Source: Arundinibacter roseus | GTDB lineage: Bacteria; Bacteroidota; Bacteroidia; Cytophagales; Spirosomataceae | Assembly: GCF_004348825.1 (NCBI RefSeq) | Contig: NZ_SMJU01000008.1 | Span: forward strand, 62,001 to 126,000 | Reading direction: 5' to 3' | Length of the DNA stretch: 64,000 bases | In this document: in pieces, positions 54,732 through 62,988 of the stretch | Layout of the letters: each line of letters begins with the position of its first letter | How positions within the stretch are numbered: position 1 is the first letter of the stretch | Made by a program: the position numbers and the translations under genes | The notes under the pieces: generated by a model | The model's database searches: none | Told to the model about the DNA's origin: nothing | What the model saw: only the letters and a program-made list of their open reading frames with translations

Positions 54732-55145
54732 TCAGGAAGTTCGTTTACCAAACAACCACGGACGGCAGTAGAACAAATTGTACATGTGTCCGCCAATGAG
54801 CAGAAAAGAACCTACATAACCCAGAATTTCGAACAGAACGTGCTTGTTTTCCAAAAGAATCGACACCGAAAACAAGGCAAAGGCTCCCCACATAAACGCG
54901 CGAAGTGCCGGAAGCTGATGGTCACGTGAGGCATAATATACCGCCAAACCGTTGATGAGAATGAAGAAATAGTCAAAACTAATACCACCCGCAGCATGTT
55001 GATGATCCATTGAATAGGAAGAACCAATAGCTAAGGCGGGAGTTATAAGGCAGTGAATCAGACACATGACTGAGCCGGCAATACCGACATAATCAGCCTT
55101 TCCGTGGGTGTGTTCTTTGGTATGTATGGTTGAATTCGTCTTCAT
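54732..55145 (-). CDS. MerC domain-containing membrane protein
   Basis: A 137-residue protein with four hydrophobic segments. The first contains the CxxxC pair GSVMCLIHCLITPAL typical of MerC-type proteins. The N-terminal stretch is His-rich. MerC is a mercuric-ion transporter in resistance operons, but Bacteroidota members beside a Fur-family gene are more likely involved in metal (zinc) handling. The promoter carries a copy of the TGCAAC-N3-GTTGCA operator. The ATG at 55145 is preferred to the longer frame from 55196. Confidence 0.82.
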   Translation of the reverse strand: MKTNSTIHTKEHTHGKADYVGIAGSVMCLIHCLITPALAIGSSYSMDHQHAAGGISFDYFFILINGLAVYYASRDHQLPALRAFMWGAFALFSVSILLENKHVLFEILGYVGSFLLIGGHMYNLFYCRPWLFGKRTS

Positions 55146-55165
55146 GAGTTTATGCAATACTGATG

Positions 55166-55196
55166 CAAAAGTAACAGGAAACTTTATGTTTTGCAA
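55166..55196 (-). promoter_or_regulatory. Promoter of the MerC-like gene
   Basis: On the minus strand: TTG (55196-55194), 20-bp spacer, TACTTTTG (55173-55166), agreeing with the TTG/TAnnTTTG consensus. The TTG lies inside the operator palindrome at 55192-55206. The start codon is 20 bp downstream. Confidence 0.65.
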
Positions 55197-55206
55197 CGCT
55201 GTTGCA
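55192..55206. promoter_or_regulatory. Operator palindrome TGCAAC-GCT-GTTGCA
   Basis: Perfect 6-3-6 inverted repeat covering the -33 element of the MerC-like gene promoter. The same repeat occurs in the TonB receptor promoter at 58783-58797. It is probably the site for the Fur-family regulator encoded at 55361. Confidence 0.7.
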
Positions 55207-55360
55207 GGATAAAAGATTCAATTTACTGCTTCACCTCACGAACTTTTAGAAATCAAAAGCTGAATTGTACCTTTACAGAATCAACCAATGAGTTTACAAA
55301 GGGACGATTATTTCGGGAAAGTAGATTATATTTAAAGTAACCAAAATCAAGTAATGAGCT

Positions 55361-55780
55361 ATGAATCAATTTGTTAAAAATACGTTGAAAGATCATAGCC
55401 TGCGCAACACGCTTTGCCGGGAAGATATTCTGGAAACATTTTTGTCCAGGGAAGTTGCCCTTTCACATGGTGATTTGGAACACTCACTGGGTGAAAAATT
55501 TGACCGGGTAACGATTTACCGGACTTTGAAGACTTTTCTTGAAAAAGGAATTATCCACAAAGTACTTGATGAAGAAGGCATGCGCTATGCGCTGTGCAAA
55601 GAGCGCTGCACGGAACATAATCATCACCACGATCACGTACATTTTAAGTGCAGCGAATGCGGGCAAACCAATTGCCTGGAAAGCCTGCATATACCGTCCA
55701 TTCAGCTTCCGGCGGGCTACCACGCACAGGAAATGAACCTACTGATTCAAGGCCTGTGCGCGGCATGCTCGGAGAATTAA
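55361..55780 (+). CDS. Fur family transcriptional regulator (likely Zur-type)
   Basis: A 139-residue winged-helix metalloregulator. The recognition region is VTIYRTLKTFLEKGIIHKV. A His cluster (HNHHHDHVHF) follows the DNA-binding domain, and two Cys pairs (KCSECG and LCAACS) form the structural zinc site. I lean to zinc rather than iron sensing because of the MerC-like, lipoprotein and receptor neighbours, but the sequence does not prove it. It is divergent from the MerC gene, with the operator in the shared region. Confidence 0.9.
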   Translation: MNQFVKNTLKDHSLRNTLCREDILETFLSREVALSHGDLEHSLGEKFDRVTIYRTLKTFLEKGIIHKVLDEEGMRYALCKERCTEHNHHHDHVHFKCSECGQTNCLESLHIPSIQLPAGYHAQEMNLLIQGLCAACSEN

Positions 55781-55789
55781 AACTCTGAA

Positions 55790-56356
55790 TTAGTTGACTT
55801 CCAGATCAAAATCCAGATTTACATCATCACTTCCCGGACCGGGTGTTCCATTCTTGACGGGAACGCCGTTTACAGGAGTCTGATGCCGTAGCTGTACTTT
55901 CAATTTCCCTGTTCCGGCAGCTCCGGTGGTAGCAGTTCCTGTAAGGCCAATCGGGAAATTATTTGCATCTTTATCACCGTAGACATAGGTCAGCAACGAT
56001 GCAGGCGTGGCCGTAAATATTACAAGATGTTCATCGGCTTCTTCTTCTACTTCTTCCGTTATGTCTTCGGCAGGAGTTTTGCTCTCGTCCAGAAATTCAA
56101 CTGTAAGCGTATAACTTGTATTTGCTTTGAGCGCTATCTTATCAAAAGTAGTTGGGGCGTTTCCACCATCACCATCTGTGTCCCGGAAAGTAAACTGTAA
56201 AGGAGTAGTGCTTCCAGACTCTGTAAATTTCAGTACAACGGTTGTTATCAACTCATTTTCTTCTTCAGGCTCTACATCCTCTGCTTTCTTACACTGTGTA
56301 AGAAATAAGGTCAAACCTATCATTACCAACGACATCCATTGCTTTTTTCTGTTCAT
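55790..56356 (-). CDS. Lipoprotein associated with a TonB receptor
   Basis: A 188-residue lipoprotein with lipobox LFLTQC. The mature part is acidic, with FTFRDTDGDGGNAPTTF and DITEEVEEEADEHLVIF. These are features I recall from a family in Bacteroidota annotated as periplasmic-binding-fold-like proteins next to metal-related receptors. It follows the TonB receptor by 46 bp, so the two form an operon. It may bind the receptor ligand at the cell surface. No enzymatic motif is seen. Confidence 0.82.
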   Translation of the reverse strand: MNRKKQWMSLVMIGLTLFLTQCKKAEDVEPEEENELITTVVLKFTESGSTTPLQFTFRDTDGDGGNAPTTFDKIALKANTSYTLTVEFLDESKTPAEDITEEVEEEADEHLVIFTATPASLLTYVYGDKDANNFPIGLTGTATTGAAGTGKLKVQLRHQTPVNGVPVKNGTPGPGSDDVNLDFDLEVN

Positions 56357-56402
56357 CTTATTTTAGTTTATTAGTTATAAAAAATAGTAAAAATTCAGAT
56401 TT

Positions 56403-58760
56403 TCACCCTCCAAAACTCCACTGAGCTCTGAGAGAAATCATTCGTCCGATTTCATCGGAGAAATAGCGGAAGCGGTTCAGATAATCCCGGTAAACGGTAT
56501 CGAAAAGATTATCAACGGTTATAGTCAGTTCAAGTTGATTTTTAGGACTAACTTCCCATTTACCCCCGGCCTGAACAGCCCACAACGAATACGCCGCCGG
56601 AGGCGGAGCAAAATCACTTGCCGGTGGCACCCGCCGCTGTTCGGCCACCCAACGATTAGTAACCGAAGCATACAGATTGCTCCATTGTCCAGCTTCTTTC
56701 CATTGGTACTTCAAGGCATTGTCCCAGCGATTTGCCGGAATCATCACGAGGTAACTATCATTGCGTACGTCTGTAACCCGCAAATAGGAAAACTTACTAG
56801 TCCAGGCGAGTTCTTTGGTTAGGTTCAGTTCCGCGTTTACATCCAATCCGGCAAAAGTGGCGTTGGTTTGGGTATATTTGAAATAGGGAAAAGCACCACG
56901 AATGGTCAGAATAGGCTCGGGCTGCGGTTTCAGATAGATATAATCCCGGATATAATTATAGTAAGCACCTACTTCTACCCTAAGTCGGGAATGTTCATAT
57001 TGCGCACTCAGAACAGAATTCAGTGCTTTTTCGGGTTGCAGATTTTCATTTCCTTCCTCAAAAGCGGCTGCTCCGTGGTGTACGCCATCACTAAATAACT
57101 CGCTAACATTTGGCGCACGCCAGGCCGAGCCCATATTGAACCGTACCGACCAGGCATCCGAAAGATTTCGTCCGGCACCGATGGTTCCGGAAGCATTATG
57201 AAACCGGAAAATGTTCGTTACTTTTTCGCGGCTCACAATTCTGTACGTCGAAAGAAAGCGATAATCGTAGCGAAATCCTGCTTCCAGTTCCCAGCCGTTT
57301 TGCACGAGACGCTCAATGGCAAAAAGCCCGATATTCCATTGGTCAAAATTTGGAATCAACGGTCTTCCACTCATCAAATTGTACTGATAAAGCGTACTGA
57401 GCCCTAGCTGTCCGGCAAATTTCCGGGCCAAAGGCTTATGGTCCCAAATCAGATCGTTGGTCAGTGTATTGAGTTTAAAATTAAGTTCGGGGCGATTGAG
57501 GGCTGCCAGCGAATCATTGCGGGGGCGATGCAGGTCATACTCGGCCCGTTGGTTTAGCTGTCGGGCCACTACCCACTGAATGCGGTTTCCATCCGGAAAA
57601 TGGTAGTGTGTTTCGACTTTCAACAAATCATGCTCGACATCCTGAAACGGACGATTGATCGAGTAGCTAAAATCTGACTTGATGAGCGGTTCCCCATTTT
57701 CCAGTACAGCCAGCAAATCGGTAACACTGCCAATATGTGCGCCGGAAAAAATACCGATTTGGGTGGTGAAATGACTGTAAAAAGCTTCAATACCAAAGCC
57801 ACCTTTGCGATAACCGGCAGCAAGCGAAAAATTTTGTTCGGAAATACCGGTATTATCCAGGAAATAGTTTGGGGTTCGGATATTTCCACCCCGCTTGCCT
57901 GTGGCCTGAGCGCGCCAGCCAAAGCCTTCCAGCCCCTTAATGCCTCCCTGAAGCGTAGCCGAAGCAACGCCTTGTCGGCCATTGGAAAAGTATACGGTAT
58001 TTACCTCACCACTAATCGGTTTATCAATCGGTAATTCTTTGGGCTCTACCAAAATTACCCCTCCAATAGCATCCGAGCCATACCGCACCCCGGCGGCTCC
58101 TTTTACTACTGCAAGCCGGGTGGCAATAAATGGATCAATTTCGGGCGCATGCTCAGAGCCCCATTGCTGCCCTTCCTGCCTGATGCCATTATTCATGATC
58201 AGAATTCGGTTGCTGTGCATGCCATGAATGACAGGCTTGGCAATAGATGCCCCGGTTTGTAAGGTAGTAAGGCCGGTAATTGATTTCAGGCTTTCGCCCA
58301 GAGACTGTCCGCGGGTTTGGGCTAAGGCCGAACCGGACAATATGCTCAACGGCTGCGTACTTGGGGCATCGGTCCGTTGAGTCGTTATATCAATATCATT
58401 CAGGTGGATTTCCGTTTCAGCCAACGAAAAATCTTCTTCGTGGCCTTCGGTGAGATCAATTCGGTGGCGGCTCGACTGATAACCCACGATCCTGCACTCT
58501 ACATCATATACCCCGGGACAAAGTCCCGCAAACTGATAGCGTCCTTCGGCATCCGTAAACGTTCCGGTGTTTTTTCCGATCAGCAAAACCGTGGCACCTA
58601 CCACGGGCAGGCCGGTGTGCTCATCTTTTACCACGCCTTTAACAAAGCAATGGCAATCCTTTTCCACCGACTGTGCGAGTCCGGGAAGCAGGTTCAAGAG
58701 TCCCAGAAGAATCAGAATCCCTTGTTTGAATAATATGAATGAATTCCTATACTTTGCCAC
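56403..58760 (-). CDS. TonB-dependent receptor, probable metal (zinc) uptake
   Basis: An outer-membrane receptor of about 785 residues with a carboxypeptidase-like beta domain (GVVKDEHTGLPVVGATVLLIGKN), a plug (VIHGMHSNRILIMNNGIRQEGQQWGSEHAPEIDP) and a barrel ending in LRAQWSFGG. The signal is FKQGILILLGLLNLLPGLAQ. The frame opens with an ATG at 58787, but that codon lies inside the operator palindrome and upstream of the predicted transcription start. I therefore prefer the in-frame GTG at 58760, which would be nearly leaderless. Its promoter carries the TGCAAC-N3-GTTGCA operator. HGMHSNRI and the partner lipoprotein are reminiscent of ZnuD-like receptors. Confidence 0.85.
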   Translation of the reverse strand: MAKYRNSFILFKQGILILLGLLNLLPGLAQSVEKDCHCFVKGVVKDEHTGLPVVGATVLLIGKNTGTFTDAEGRYQFAGLCPGVYDVECRIVGYQSSRHRIDLTEGHEEDFSLAETEIHLNDIDITTQRTDAPSTQPLSILSGSALAQTRGQSLGESLKSITGLTTLQTGASIAKPVIHGMHSNRILIMNNGIRQEGQQWGSEHAPEIDPFIATRLAVVKGAAGVRYGSDAIGGVILVEPKELPIDKPISGEVNTVYFSNGRQGVASATLQGGIKGLEGFGWRAQATGKRGGNIRTPNYFLDNTGISEQNFSLAAGYRKGGFGIEAFYSHFTTQIGIFSGAHIGSVTDLLAVLENGEPLIKSDFSYSINRPFQDVEHDLLKVETHYHFPDGNRIQWVVARQLNQRAEYDLHRPRNDSLAALNRPELNFKLNTLTNDLIWDHKPLARKFAGQLGLSTLYQYNLMSGRPLIPNFDQWNIGLFAIERLVQNGWELEAGFRYDYRFLSTYRIVSREKVTNIFRFHNASGTIGAGRNLSDAWSVRFNMGSAWRAPNVSELFSDGVHHGAAAFEEGNENLQPEKALNSVLSAQYEHSRLRVEVGAYYNYIRDYIYLKPQPEPILTIRGAFPYFKYTQTNATFAGLDVNAELNLTKELAWTSKFSYLRVTDVRNDSYLVMIPANRWDNALKYQWKEAGQWSNLYASVTNRWVAEQRRVPPASDFAPPPAAYSLWAVQAGGKWEVSPKNQLELTITVDNLFDTVYRDYLNRFRYFSDEIGRMISLRAQWSFGG

Positions 58761-58767
58761 AATGTTG

Positions 58768-58798
58768 CAAATATATGCTTTGTGCAACCTTGTTGCAA
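58768..58798 (-). promoter_or_regulatory. Promoter of the TonB receptor operon
   Basis: On the minus strand: TTG (58798-58796), 20-bp spacer, TATATTTG (58775-58768). The operator palindrome (58783-58797) occupies the spacer and touches the TTG. A further half-site GTTGCAA is at 58764-58770. Confidence 0.65.
58783..58797. promoter_or_regulatory. Operator palindrome TGCAAC-CTT-GTTGCA
   Basis: Perfect 6-3-6 inverted repeat, the second copy of the motif at 55192-55206. It overlaps the promoter of the TonB receptor operon and lies upstream of the promoter of the divergent membrane protein. Confidence 0.7.
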
Positions 58799-59747: not shown

Positions 59748-60863
59748 TTAGATCAGGATATTTCGGGTGAGCAATTCACCAAATATGCCTTCTCCCAATA
59801 TCTTTATCGGATTTTTTACCACCGGAGCTGAAAGGTACTTTTTCATGTCTGCCGTAATCTCGAAGGTTTCATAGGCCGTTCGATCAAAGAGTAGATAGTT
59901 ACTTTCCAGCTCGAAAATCCGGTACCTACTCTGATTGAAACGGTAGGTAGTTTTTTTTCTGCTTACATCATAGGTTACGTTAGTAGTAAAGGTCTGGGGC
60001 GGAATAACCATCGAATTATGTACGTAACTCCATCCTTCCCATTGATCAGGATACTTCTCGACATACTGTCCAAAGTACTTATAAATTGCGGAGAGTGAAC
60101 GATCACAAAACTCCTCGCGGTTCTCATTTTTTCTGCAAACAATCGGCTTACCAATTCTCAGAACGTTTTGCAGATTGCTCTTGCGAAACTGAACAATAGG
60201 CAGAATCGGGACACCCGAAAGAAAGCTTGCGTATGGTACACCTTTGCGGACTTTCAGTTTCTGATTCAGGAAACTTACAGTAGTCTTATGTTCTTCACCT
60301 GAACCTGTGTCACCGTCGATATAGACCAAAATCGAGCGGCCTGCCTGCAATTCCCGGGTCATTTGAAGTAATACCCGGGGGTCTTCAGCATTCAAAATAT
60401 TTACCTTACTGGGTGTGCCAAAGGTATCGTGCATGTTGCGGCAATACTCTTTAAACTCGGCCTGCTGCGTTTCAAATACCTCCTGACGTACTAGGGTAGA
60501 AAACTGGTATCCTTTGCGCAATAGTAAATTGGCGATCAAACGATACGACCCAATGTGGAACGTGCAGAAAATAAATGGCTTCTTAGCACTACTTATCAGT
60601 GACAAATCTCCTTCAATAGCTGCCACATCGCTAAGGTGCATCAGTTCACGATCAAATTTTTCGAGCGTAAGGTTACGAATAAGATTCACATACAACTGCT
60701 CATGACCTGACTCAGAAATAGTGGGAAGAAAGTTTGTAAGATTGGCCGAAAACAGCCCGGACCGTACACAGTAACCTTCTTCCCGGCGCATATCAACCCG
60801 ATCAAATGCGGTAATACATTCCTGGGCTACCTCCCGATAAGCTGCTAGTGATTTCGTTTTCAT
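59748..60863 (-). CDS. LpxL-like acyltransferase with possible RRE-like C-terminal domain
   Basis: A 371-residue protein. Residues about 80-295 match the LpxL/HtrB lysophospholipid-acyltransferase fold, seen in IFCTFHIGSYRLIANLLL, VYIDGDTGSGEEH, GVPILPIVQF and YPDQWEGWSYVH. The catalytic HX4(D/E) pair reads HIGSYR, so His103 is kept but the acidic residue is Arg108. The last 68 residues (304-371) are not part of the acyltransferase. Their RYRIFELESNYLLFDRTAYE and ITADMKKYLSA look like the start of PqqD/RRE-type domains that bind RiPP leader peptides. A 59-codon peptide gene lies 36 bp upstream in the same operon. No lipid A genes are near. Substrate unknown. Confidence 0.8.
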   Translation of the reverse strand: MKTKSLAAYREVAQECITAFDRVDMRREEGYCVRSGLFSANLTNFLPTISESGHEQLYVNLIRNLTLEKFDRELMHLSDVAAIEGDLSLISSAKKPFIFCTFHIGSYRLIANLLLRKGYQFSTLVRQEVFETQQAEFKEYCRNMHDTFGTPSKVNILNAEDPRVLLQMTRELQAGRSILVYIDGDTGSGEEHKTTVSFLNQKLKVRKGVPYASFLSGVPILPIVQFRKSNLQNVLRIGKPIVCRKNENREEFCDRSLSAIYKYFGQYVEKYPDQWEGWSYVHNSMVIPPQTFTTNVTYDVSRKKTTYRFNQSRYRIFELESNYLLFDRTAYETFEITADMKKYLSAPVVKNPIKILGEGIFGELLTRNILI

Positions 60864-60899
60864 TGTAACCGGATTTAGGAGTTGGGCAAGTGCAATTAC

Positions 60900-61079
60900 T
60901 TAGAGAGAAACAGACAGTCCTTTCGATGTTTTTGGGACTACTATACCAAAGCAGGACTCGCCACGTAAACCACCTTCGCTTGCAAATAATGAGCTTTTAA
61001 TTTCACCTTTTGCCTTAATTGCGTTATCTTTCAAGTACTGAGACAACGTTCCTTTTGACTTAATTTCGAAGTTTTTCAT
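60900..61079 (-). CDS. Small peptide gene, possible RiPP precursor
   Basis: A 59-codon open frame, ATG at 61079, stop TAA at 60902-60900. The peptide begins MKNFEIKSKGTLSQYL, is rich in Lys and Ser, contains SEGG (residues 34-37), and after it has one Cys (Cys43) and ends in LSVSL. The layout, a charged N-terminal half followed by Gly-Gly and a 22-residue tail, fits a leader plus core. I cannot match it to a known family. It is 36 bp upstream of the acyltransferase with the RRE-like domain. A -7-like TACCTTTG is about 100 bp upstream (61186-61179) with a poorly spaced TTG (16 bp). Confidence 0.62.
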   Translation of the reverse strand: MKNFEIKSKGTLSQYLKDNAIKAKGEIKSSLFASEGGLRGESCFGIVVPKTSKGLSVSL

Positions 61080-61178
61080 GATTTTGAATTGTTTAGAATG
61101 AACGGTTAGGACTATTATCTGGAATTAATTAACTTTTGGTTGAAAGCAAGCGTTTGTGATGTGCTTAACTTTCGATTA

Positions 61179-61205
61179 CAAAGGTATACCACAGGGGGCC
61201 TCCAA
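61179..61205 (-). promoter_or_regulatory. Possible promoter of the peptide/acyltransferase operon
   Basis: On the minus strand TACCTTTG at 61186-61179 matches the -7 consensus. A TTG at 61205-61203 is only 16 bp upstream, shorter than the usual 19-20. It would give a leader of about 95 nt. Confidence 0.4.
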
Positions 61206-61322
61206 ATAATCCGTGTTTTTTTCTATATTCAATTCAAAAAATAGTCATTAATTACTAGTTTCTTTGTACTCGGAATTCAGCATGAAGCCGCCCTTTTGTA
61301 GCCATTGAAAACTTAACAACAA

Positions 61323-62327
61323 ATGCATCAGCCTGTGAAAACCCTTGAGTTAAACCGTTCTTTCTTACGAAAACCGTTAAGCGGTATAGCCATCCTGTTT
61401 ATAATCGTCGTACTCTATGAACTGCTAAGCTGGGCTATAACTCCCGAAACAAGGCTTTCCTTTTATAATAATTCAGAAAGCTTTACATCTTATCTGTTCA
61501 ATTGGCTTTTTGGATTTTACCTTCCAGAACTCGTTACCTTATACATTCTTGTAATTCTTGTAAATAAATTCCATACTCTATTCAAAATCAACGAATTAAC
61601 TTTATCAACTAAGTCTATTCTCCAATATCAGGCAAGTTTTTTACCTCTTTTCCTAACCGCCTACTTCTTTTTTATTCCGATTACACTTCACCTACGTTTT
61701 TTCCTGAGGGAATTTCCGGAGTATGATATGCTTCGCTACCAACAACGCTATTTGGTATACTTCTATACCGTTGAGGGATACATCAGCTACACACCTTTTG
61801 TCATTCTCCTGGGCTATATCCTATTGAATACCTCTCTGATTTTGGATTTTTTACAAAACCTGAGAAAAGTTGCCGATCCATCAGACTCTGTATTTAGTGC
61901 GTTTGCCTCCTTTGCCACTGGCACTCCAAGAACCTACACCCAATTAATTGAGGCTAAGATGAGTACAGGTGACACCCTGCTCAGTGTGGAGGATTGCTAC
62001 TTGTTTGAAACTGTTTCCGGAGAATATTTTGTGGAGCATCGTACGGGTCGTTTTACGGTTTCCAAGTCACTTGCCGAACTCGAAAACGAATTGGATCCGC
62101 AGCGATTTTTCAGGGGGAACCGAAATTATATTCTAAATCTGGATTTTTTCGACAGTTATTCTTATTGGGAAAAAGGCAAGTATATTTTATATAGTCGTAA
62201 GTTACCAGGCAAACAGCTGATTATGCCTCGTGCCCGCATGCAAAGTTTCAAAGAGGCCCTCGAAAGCAACCGTTCCGCGGCTCCCGGACCAAAAGTTACG
62301 CTCGCGGATCCCCAAGGAAACTCCTGA
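61323..62327 (+). CDS. Membrane-bound LytTR-domain regulator
   Basis: A 334-residue protein with four membrane helices in residues 20-190 and a LytTR DNA-binding domain at about 225-320 (DTLLSVEDCYLFETVSGEYFVEHRTG, then ELENELDPQRFFRGNRNYILNL). No receiver domain is present, so it is a one-component sensor that would bind DNA from the membrane. Its 3' end overlaps the LuxR gene on the other strand by 32 bp. A 16-bp direct repeat with a 21-bp period at 63064-63100, upstream of luxR, has the geometry of LytTR sites. Confidence 0.88.
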   Translation: MHQPVKTLELNRSFLRKPLSGIAILFIIVVLYELLSWAITPETRLSFYNNSESFTSYLFNWLFGFYLPELVTLYILVILVNKFHTLFKINELTLSTKSILQYQASFLPLFLTAYFFFIPITLHLRFFLREFPEYDMLRYQQRYLVYFYTVEGYISYTPFVILLGYILLNTSLILDFLQNLRKVADPSDSVFSAFASFATGTPRTYTQLIEAKMSTGDTLLSVEDCYLFETVSGEYFVEHRTGRFTVSKSLAELENELDPQRFFRGNRNYILNLDFFDSYSYWEKGKYILYSRKLPGKQLIMPRARMQSFKEALESNRSAAPGPKVTLADPQGNS

Positions 62328-62988
62328 TCCGCAATCCGTGGCGCAACAATTGCCTTCCGCTATCCAAAGAAAACTTTTGGGTAATATTTTGTTTATGATT
62401 GGCCAACGTCCGGTAGCTCATGTTGAGCTGCTCGGCTACCTCGTGCCCGGTCAGGCCTTTGGTCAAATAGTATAGTACCTGCCGCTCGCGCTTGGTGAGC
62501 GACTTGATGATCGCCAATGTCTCGCTATCTGCTTCATTAATTCCCAATTCCCGGATCAACTCCCGAAAGCAGGAGCTAAAATAAGTTGTGTCTCTACTCG
62601 TCGATTGCAGGCAGCGATACAACTCTTCGAGCTGATCTTCGGCATGCAGGTAAGCACTAAACTTTGCTTCCAGCACTTTTGATATATCCTGTGTATCGTG
62701 GGTATTCACATACAACACAACCTTCGGTACTTTTTTGAGTTCTCCCAAAGCGCTGATCAAACGTGATGCATCACCGATCAGTCCAACCTCAGTAATGACG
62801 CAGGCTGGTTTTTTTGTCTGTATTTTACTTATCAAATCGTCGAGCTGAGAGGCACGCCCGACAACATCAAATCCTTCACTTTTCAGAAGGCTTCCCAATA
62901 CTTCACAGGTAAATGGTTCTGACTTTGCAACAAGCACGGTGGCATCCGTTTTTCTTAATGACCACTTAGATTCCATTTCTTTTTTCAT
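62296..62988 (-). CDS. LuxR-type regulator with degenerate receiver
   Basis: A 230-residue response-regulator-like protein. The C-terminal LuxR/GerE HTH is normal (LTKRERQVLYYLTKGLTGHEVAEQLNMSYRTLANHKQNI). The N-terminal receiver is abnormal: the acidic pocket reads AKSEPF and the phosphoacceptor position is Glu67 (ACVITEVGLIG) instead of Asp. It therefore may be constitutively active or controlled without phosphate. No histidine kinase is next to it. It converges on the LytTR gene, overlapping by 32 bp, so the two may affect each other. Confidence 0.88.
   Translation of the reverse strand: MKKEMESKWSLRKTDATVLVAKSEPFTCEVLGSLLKSEGFDVVGRASQLDDLISKIQTKKPACVITEVGLIGDASRLISALGELKKVPKVVLYVNTHDTQDISKVLEAKFSAYLHAEDQLEELYRCLQSTSRDTTYFSSCFRELIRELGINEADSETLAIIKSLTKRERQVLYYLTKGLTGHEVAEQLNMSYRTLANHKQNITQKFSLDSGRQLLRHGLRIRSFLGDPRA

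Follow-up and report, generated by a model that had tools for sequence, protein, structure and literature searches.

The peptide-acyltransferase locus

The window, that is, the whole stretch of 64,000 nucleotides analysed here, comes from a host placed near the Spirosomataceae (Cytophagales). The closest named relative found is Persicitalea jodogahamensis, whose enzyme is 80% identical to the one described below; a search of genome contigs gave this Persicitalea locus as its single match. The locus comprises the following features, each given with the evidence for the call.

59748..60863, minus strand: LpxL/PatA-fold acyltransferase with a predicted C-terminal RRE, 371 aa (fold search, Pfam in some members, motifs)
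59751..59981, minus strand: predicted C-terminal RRE (PqqD-like winged helix), enzyme residues 295-371 (tail-only AF2 model)
60900..61079, minus strand: precursor-like peptide gene, 59 aa (ORF; upstream of 50/50 close enzyme homologues; alignment; dN/dS)
61179..61186, minus strand: TACCTTTG, a -7 promoter element of Bacteroidota type that belongs to the peptide-acyltransferase operon (TAnnTTTG pattern)
61242..61257, no strand assigned: 16-bp near-palindrome TAGTCATTAATTACTA, a candidate operator (lies 71 bp upstream of the promoter element that precedes the peptide)
61323..62327, plus strand: LytTR regulator embedded in the membrane, 334 aa, its gene divergent from that of the peptide (Pfam LytTR 6.3e-15; same place in 50/50 loci)
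62296..62988, minus strand: LuxR-type regulator with a pseudo-receiver (Pfam GerE 1.7e-14, Response_reg 3.5e-7)

ORF calls agree with the initial annotation in that the peptide ORF (61079-60900) and the acyltransferase ORF (60863-59748) both lie on the minus strand, separated by a 36-bp gap. The peptide, MKNFEIKSKGTLSQYLKDNAIKAKGEIKSSLFASEGGLRGESCFGIVVPKTSKGLSVSL, is Lys-rich, as had been described, with nine Lys residues, and its single Cys (C43) is located inside a 22-residue tail; no Pfam or NCBIfam family matched it. The cassette also holds the two regulators, LuxR-type and LytTR, which had been absent from that annotation.

Elsewhere in the window (54732-58787), a Fur-family-like regulator, a small membrane protein, a 188-aa lipoprotein and a TonB-dependent receptor stand in a row. 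Judged by eye, this is probably an ordinary metal-uptake set.

The small peptide gene is conserved together with the enzyme

A sample of 297 related genomes was searched both with the enzyme and with a profile of the peptide, a bit score >200 defining a close enzyme homologue. The peptide profile matched exactly the same 54 genomes as the close enzyme and none of the 243 others; one match outside the enzyme set (genome G209, E 0.006) contains internal stops and was discarded. In all 50 extracted close-enzyme loci, the gene immediately upstream and in the same orientation encodes a peptide relative of 50-67 aa, which is present once or in up to three tandem copies. Pairwise dN/dS of the peptides had a median of 0.18 (range 0.03-0.42, all <0.5; 45 pairs). 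Taken together, the upstream conservation, the co-occurrence across genomes and the low dN/dS clearly indicate that the small ORF is a real gene under purifying selection. The initial annotation had allowed that homologues of the enzyme might usually lack the small gene or that the peptide might be poorly conserved; instead, the gene is kept in 50/50 loci and 54/54 genomes, and the peptide holds invariant residues.

The alignment of 49 peptides revealed four of these, M1, F4, E26 and C43, within the consensus MKKQFxIKxxx...AKxESxNxLxF...CC...KxVxSL; in the clade of the window peptide, Ser-Cys replaces the consensus Cys-Cys. The N-terminus is conserved and the C-terminus variable, such that residues 1-30 behave in a leader-like manner and C43 is the sole invariant residue within the variable part. 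The gene thus has the features by which RiPP precursors are recognized, namely a short peptide beside a modifying enzyme, a conserved leader, a variable core and one to three tandem copies. The Gly-Gly pair that had been pointed out is indeed present at residues 36-37 of the window peptide, but it occurs in only 6 of the 49 peptides and at varying places. Because of this lack of conservation, we no longer interpret it as a site of C39-type cleavage.

Across the phylum, 395 sampled genomes yielded only three additional members of the enzyme family, all of them distant, so that in this sample the close form is restricted to the Spirosomataceae. No relatives were found in plasmid records.

The enzyme combines an LpxL/PatA-type fold with a predicted RRE

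A structure model built from 43 sequences supports the LpxL fold originally proposed for the enzyme: the modelled protein matched LpxM (5kn7; Z 23.2, rmsd 3.0, 246 aligned residues) and PatA (Z ~22). A profile search found no sequence relatives among solved structures. The window enzyme itself matches the lipid A acyltransferase families of Pfam and NCBIfam weakly, and Pfam Lip_A_acyltrans is matched by 29 of the 55 family members at E<=1 (best 1.9e-9). His103, D183, Arg206-Lys207-Gly208 (RKG) and a QWEGW block show no or almost no variation among 67 sequences. As to the LpxL catalytic motif HX4(D/E), none of the 67 family members has the acid at H+5, and 56 of them have Arg.

Elsewhere in the genome, there are two canonical LpxL-type genes that carry HX4E (HLGNWE and HRGNWE) and can cover the lipid A work. 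As had been noted before, no lipid A gene lies in the vicinity of the acyltransferase gene; its neighbours are the peptide and the two regulators in 50/50 loci. The missing H+5 acid and the canonical paralogues allow us to conclude that the family enzyme does not serve as the lipid A enzyme and that its catalysis differs from that of LpxL, perhaps because a thiol can be activated more readily than a hydroxyl. Catalysis would need another acid, possibly the invariant D183, or else the domain may be something other than a classical acyltransferase.

The C-terminal extension had been described as an RRE-like tail of 68 residues; the tail is present, but its length is rather ~60-77 residues. RRE domains bind RiPP leader peptides. 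Because the comparison of the full fusion with the PDB mainly probed the catalytic domain, the tail was modelled alone, with 30 sequences. The tail-only AF2 model (pLDDT 89) has a winged-helix fold, as the PqqD/RRE assignment had predicted, with three strands followed by three helices (E20-24, E29-33, E38-42, H44-50, H58-62, H64-72). Its best structural matches were, in order, TbiB1 with leader (5v1v, Z 5.9), TigE (5.9), lasso B1 with leader (5.8), NisB (5.6), MadB, MibB (5.5), PqqD (5sxy, 5.3), ThcOx (5.1) and McbB (5.1), with MccB (4.6), GodF and the PbtF RRE (4.4) lower on the list; the other group among the matches, winged helices of ribosomal oxygenases, scored lower. Such scores are middling (Z <6, Foldseek E-values >0.1), as expected for ~60 residues, yet they carry weight because nearly all of the top matches belong to one functional class, that of RiPP leader binding. 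On the basis of this model, we assign the tail to the RRE domains.

A single reading frame runs through the window peptide, its TAA stop, the 12-codon gap and the enzyme, and the read-through chain was folded as a probe for leader docking. In the resulting model, peptide residues 1-30 were predicted with block pLDDT values of 86, 83 and 75 and formed a strand across residues 6-11, with a 13-residue linker that forces proximity, and residues 32-69 were mostly below pLDDT 50. ThcOx, which carries RREs, aligned over residues 3..443 of this model, i.e., over leader and tail together, a proximity that the linker imposes. Judged by model confidence, the pattern resembles a docked leader with a free core.

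Regulators and a candidate operator form a fixed module with the operon

The order of genes is the same in 50/50 close loci: the LuxR-type regulator, the LytTR membrane protein on the opposite strand, the peptide(s) and the acyltransferase. Outside this four-gene module, the genes vary between genera, and in a few Spirosoma-type loci, extra genes separate the LuxR part from the LytTR part. The LuxR protein was found in the same 54 genomes and additionally in genome G118, where the enzyme is missing because the contig ends inside the LytTR gene. Neither a protease nor an exporter gene was found within the Spirosomataceae module.

The divergent intergenic region (window 61080-61322) holds the 16-bp near-palindrome. 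The TAnnTTTG element was detected upstream of the first peptide copy in 48 of the 50 loci, and in each of these 48 loci the near-palindrome lies 70-71 bp upstream of it, a spacing that is rigid across genera. At least 10 of 12 positions of the near-palindrome are matched in 40/50 loci, as compared to 2/50 shuffles. The fixed regulators and the operator spacing indicate that the peptide-acyltransferase operon is under dedicated control.

In the alignment of 48 LuxR orthologues, the receiver domain has Glu at the phospho-Asp position and no acidic pocket. This pseudo-receiver regulator may sense a ligand or a product. It is also an attractive reading that a lipopeptide would be sensed by the membrane-embedded LytTR protein.

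Many distant relatives of the enzyme occur in clusters with RiPP parts

Remote RRE-acyltransferases (~23-33% identity) lack the window-type peptide, and many of them are located in clusters with RiPP parts. In one locus (L104), three tandem peptides and the acyltransferase are accompanied by a radical SAM maturase and an M50 protease; another (L105) has a radical SAM protein, a peptide, the acyltransferase and M50. In L089 and L091, LanC-like proteins adjoin the RRE-acyltransferase, and further distant members have type II fatty-acid/polyketide genes as neighbours. The radical SAM protein examined is nearest to TIGR04463 RiPP maturases, and the M50 protein examined is nearest to the daptide and epipeptide maturation proteases. 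Small ORFs in these clusters carry the motif VELEER(L/F)E (VELEERFE...RC type) and a downstream Cys. Such precursor-like peptides, 1-7 each, are present in 13 of the 20 distant loci, and the strict precursor motif gave 0 matches in 838 kb of control loci; no precursor array was found in the remaining seven (L093-L098 and L106). For four clusters with fatty-acid/polyketide genes, arrays were predicted beforehand, none lying within the first stretch, and were then sought in the flanking DNA; arrays of 2, 4, 5 and 7 peptides were found in the adjoining DNA.

These RiPP contexts provide independent support for the RiPP reading of the window locus. A single Cys is the only core residue common to both precursor types, and Cys is favoured as the acceptor for this reason.

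The acyltransferase relatives encoded in L093-L098 are of RRE type but form another family (430-470 aa); their neighbours are a lipoprotein-like protein of ~280 aa and a protein of ~800 aa. At L082:4171-9125, four tandem peptides (MEKQFEIVSQTEELNNSLTIVELEERLEMAAAERCSNRCNGNDVEV) stand together with an M50 protease, an RRE-acyltransferase and an arginase-family protein that has gained an N-terminal domain, a set in which Arg-to-ornithine conversion could possibly be combined with acylation. In L085-L088, L090 and L092 (continuations L109-L111, L113 and L114), the RRE-acyltransferase stands beside arrays of 2-7 peptides of the LTIVELEERFETTVAALDSARCSGN type, and these clusters contain ketosynthases, a dehydratase, FabG, an AMP-ligase, a phosphopantetheinyl transferase and a thioesterase. 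We regard them as candidate fatty-acid/polyketide-RiPP hybrid lipopeptide clusters in Spirosomataceae.

Proposed mechanism and alternative explanations

With a probability of roughly three in four, in our estimate, the RRE-guided acyltransferase modifies this peptide, the two being a RiPP-type precursor and its dedicated enzyme. The idea of an acyltransferase recruited to a ribosomal peptide had been put forward in the initial annotation and is now supported by the gene pairing, the RRE fold, the conserved peptide and the distant RiPP clusters; acylation as the reaction, and its site, we infer. It is probable that a lipid-tagged ribosomal peptide is produced in these bacteria, along a previously undescribed route.

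In the proposed mechanism, the C-terminal RRE would grip the N-terminal part of the peptide (MKxFxIK...), which would add a beta-strand to the RRE sheet, while the flexible C-terminal part would be presented to the LpxL/PatA-type active site. An acyl group would then be transferred, with the invariant cysteine as its most likely acceptor (S-acyl) and perhaps a later shift to an amine once the leader has been removed, and the finished lipopeptide would reside in the membrane. The membrane LytTR protein and the pseudo-receiver LuxR, together with the conserved operator, would control the operon, and the regulators may sense the product. Against this reading speak the lack of the HX4(D/E) acid in the whole family, the middling scores of the RRE matches, the proximity that the linker forces on the fusion model, the absence of protease and exporter genes from the Spirosomataceae module and the seven distant loci in which no precursor was found.

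Other readings of the locus have to be weighed against acylation of the peptide. The acyltransferase-fold domain might not work as a normal enzyme, binding instead an acyl chain or acyl-ACP while the RRE holds the peptide, so that the protein would serve as a sensor or carry out a different reaction on the peptide. The family-wide absence of the HX4(D/E) acid, which both canonical LpxL paralogues possess, is consistent with this, as is the tight linkage to two regulators. Nevertheless, the near-invariance of His103, D183, RKG and QWEGW in the 67 sequences points to an active site under selection, and several distant members adjoin fatty-acid/polyketide genes that could supply an acyl donor, making this explanation rather unlikely. 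We consider it improbable that the peptide serves the enzyme as a small partner or a regulator (activator, chaperone or inhibitor) instead of being its substrate, the true acceptor being a lipid or a sugar: the small number of invariant peptide residues and a module without protease or exporter would speak for such a role, but the conserved N-terminus, variable C-terminus and tandem copies follow the precursor pattern, leader peptides are what RRE domains bind, and relatives of the enzyme reside in RiPP clusters with precursor arrays.

There is very little chance that the protein is an ordinary acyltransferase for lipid A or another envelope lipid, with the upstream small ORF being incidental. 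Its fold is that of LpxM and PatA, and about half of the family (29/55) matches Lip_A_acyltrans at E<=1; however, the genome has two canonical LpxL genes elsewhere, the enzyme bears the RRE tail and lacks HX4(D/E), and the peptide co-occurs with it in 54/54 genomes at a dN/dS of 0.18.

Comparison with known systems

To our knowledge, the attachment of fatty acids to ribosomal peptides has so far been credited to GNAT enzymes or to the lipoprotein pathway, and that of prenyl groups to prenyltransferases. No RiPP enzyme with an LpxL or lysophospholipid-acyltransferase fold was found in the literature, where the sparse coverage of subscription papers makes this absence weak evidence. If our main reading is true, an enzyme of the LpxL/PatA fold that brings along a leader-binding domain of its own would be a new route to lipopeptides, and one that is easily mined, as the substrate gene can be traced through the fused domain. 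With the catalytic acid missing, the question of acyl transfer to a thiol arises.

The known fatty-acylated RiPPs use GNAT enzymes, and selidamide-type acylation targets side chains of the core (PMC13060382). The GNAT-lipidated RiPPs (lipolanthines/microvionin, goadvionins, lipoavitides, selidamides, nostolysamides) resemble the present system in that a ribosomal precursor is accompanied by an adjacent dedicated acyltransferase. They are mostly lanthipeptides, whereas the present module has no lanthionine enzymes and Cys is the likely acceptor; in place of the GNAT fold of the selidamide/lipolanthine type, the enzyme has the LpxL/PatA fold with a C-terminal RRE predicted to be fused to it. Other known lipidated RiPPs depend on the lipoprotein pathway (PMC12636315). 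These DAG-RiPPs (chryseobasin-like, DybA) are likewise lipidated, have a conserved Cys and occur in Bacteroidota, including Cytophagales, but they are modified by the normal lipoprotein pathway via a lipobox Cys and a signal peptide (PMC12636315). The present peptide has neither, and inspection of the 49 aligned peptides revealed no hydrophobic signal segment before the Cys.

With LpxL/LpxM and mycobacterial PatA, the enzyme shares the catalytic fold (Z ~22-23), the conserved His and several block motifs; it differs by the absent HX4(D/E) acid, the additional RRE, the peptide partner gene and the absence of a lipid A context. The tail, as modelled, resembles PqqD and the RREs of TbiB1, NisB, TigE, ThcOx, MccB and PbtF in fold and in strand-helix order, and may also share with them the leader strand predicted here. 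Its fusion partner is an acyltransferase-fold enzyme in place of a cyclase, dehydratase, radical SAM enzyme, oxidase or ThiF-like enzyme.

In ComQX/ComPA and Agr-type circuits, one locus encodes a peptide, the enzyme that modifies it and regulators of the LuxR or LytTR type. Peptide, enzyme and LuxR/LytTR regulators likewise stand together here; should the linked regulators sense the product, it would be an unusual peptide signal for Bacteroidota, and a self-contained one. Only tentatively, and with the odds against it, we extend this to a new lipidated-RiPP class defined by a fused-RRE LpxL-fold enzyme S-acylating a conserved Cys, which in Spirosomataceae would form a self-contained lipopeptide signalling circuit read by the membrane LytTR protein and a phosphorylation-independent LuxR, and in other Cytophagales/Bacteroidota would belong to larger RiPP clusters, some with type II fatty-acid/polyketide synthesis. 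Where the ComQX/ComPA and Agr circuits differ from the present locus is in the histidine kinase, in place of which we find a pseudo-receiver and a membrane LytTR protein.
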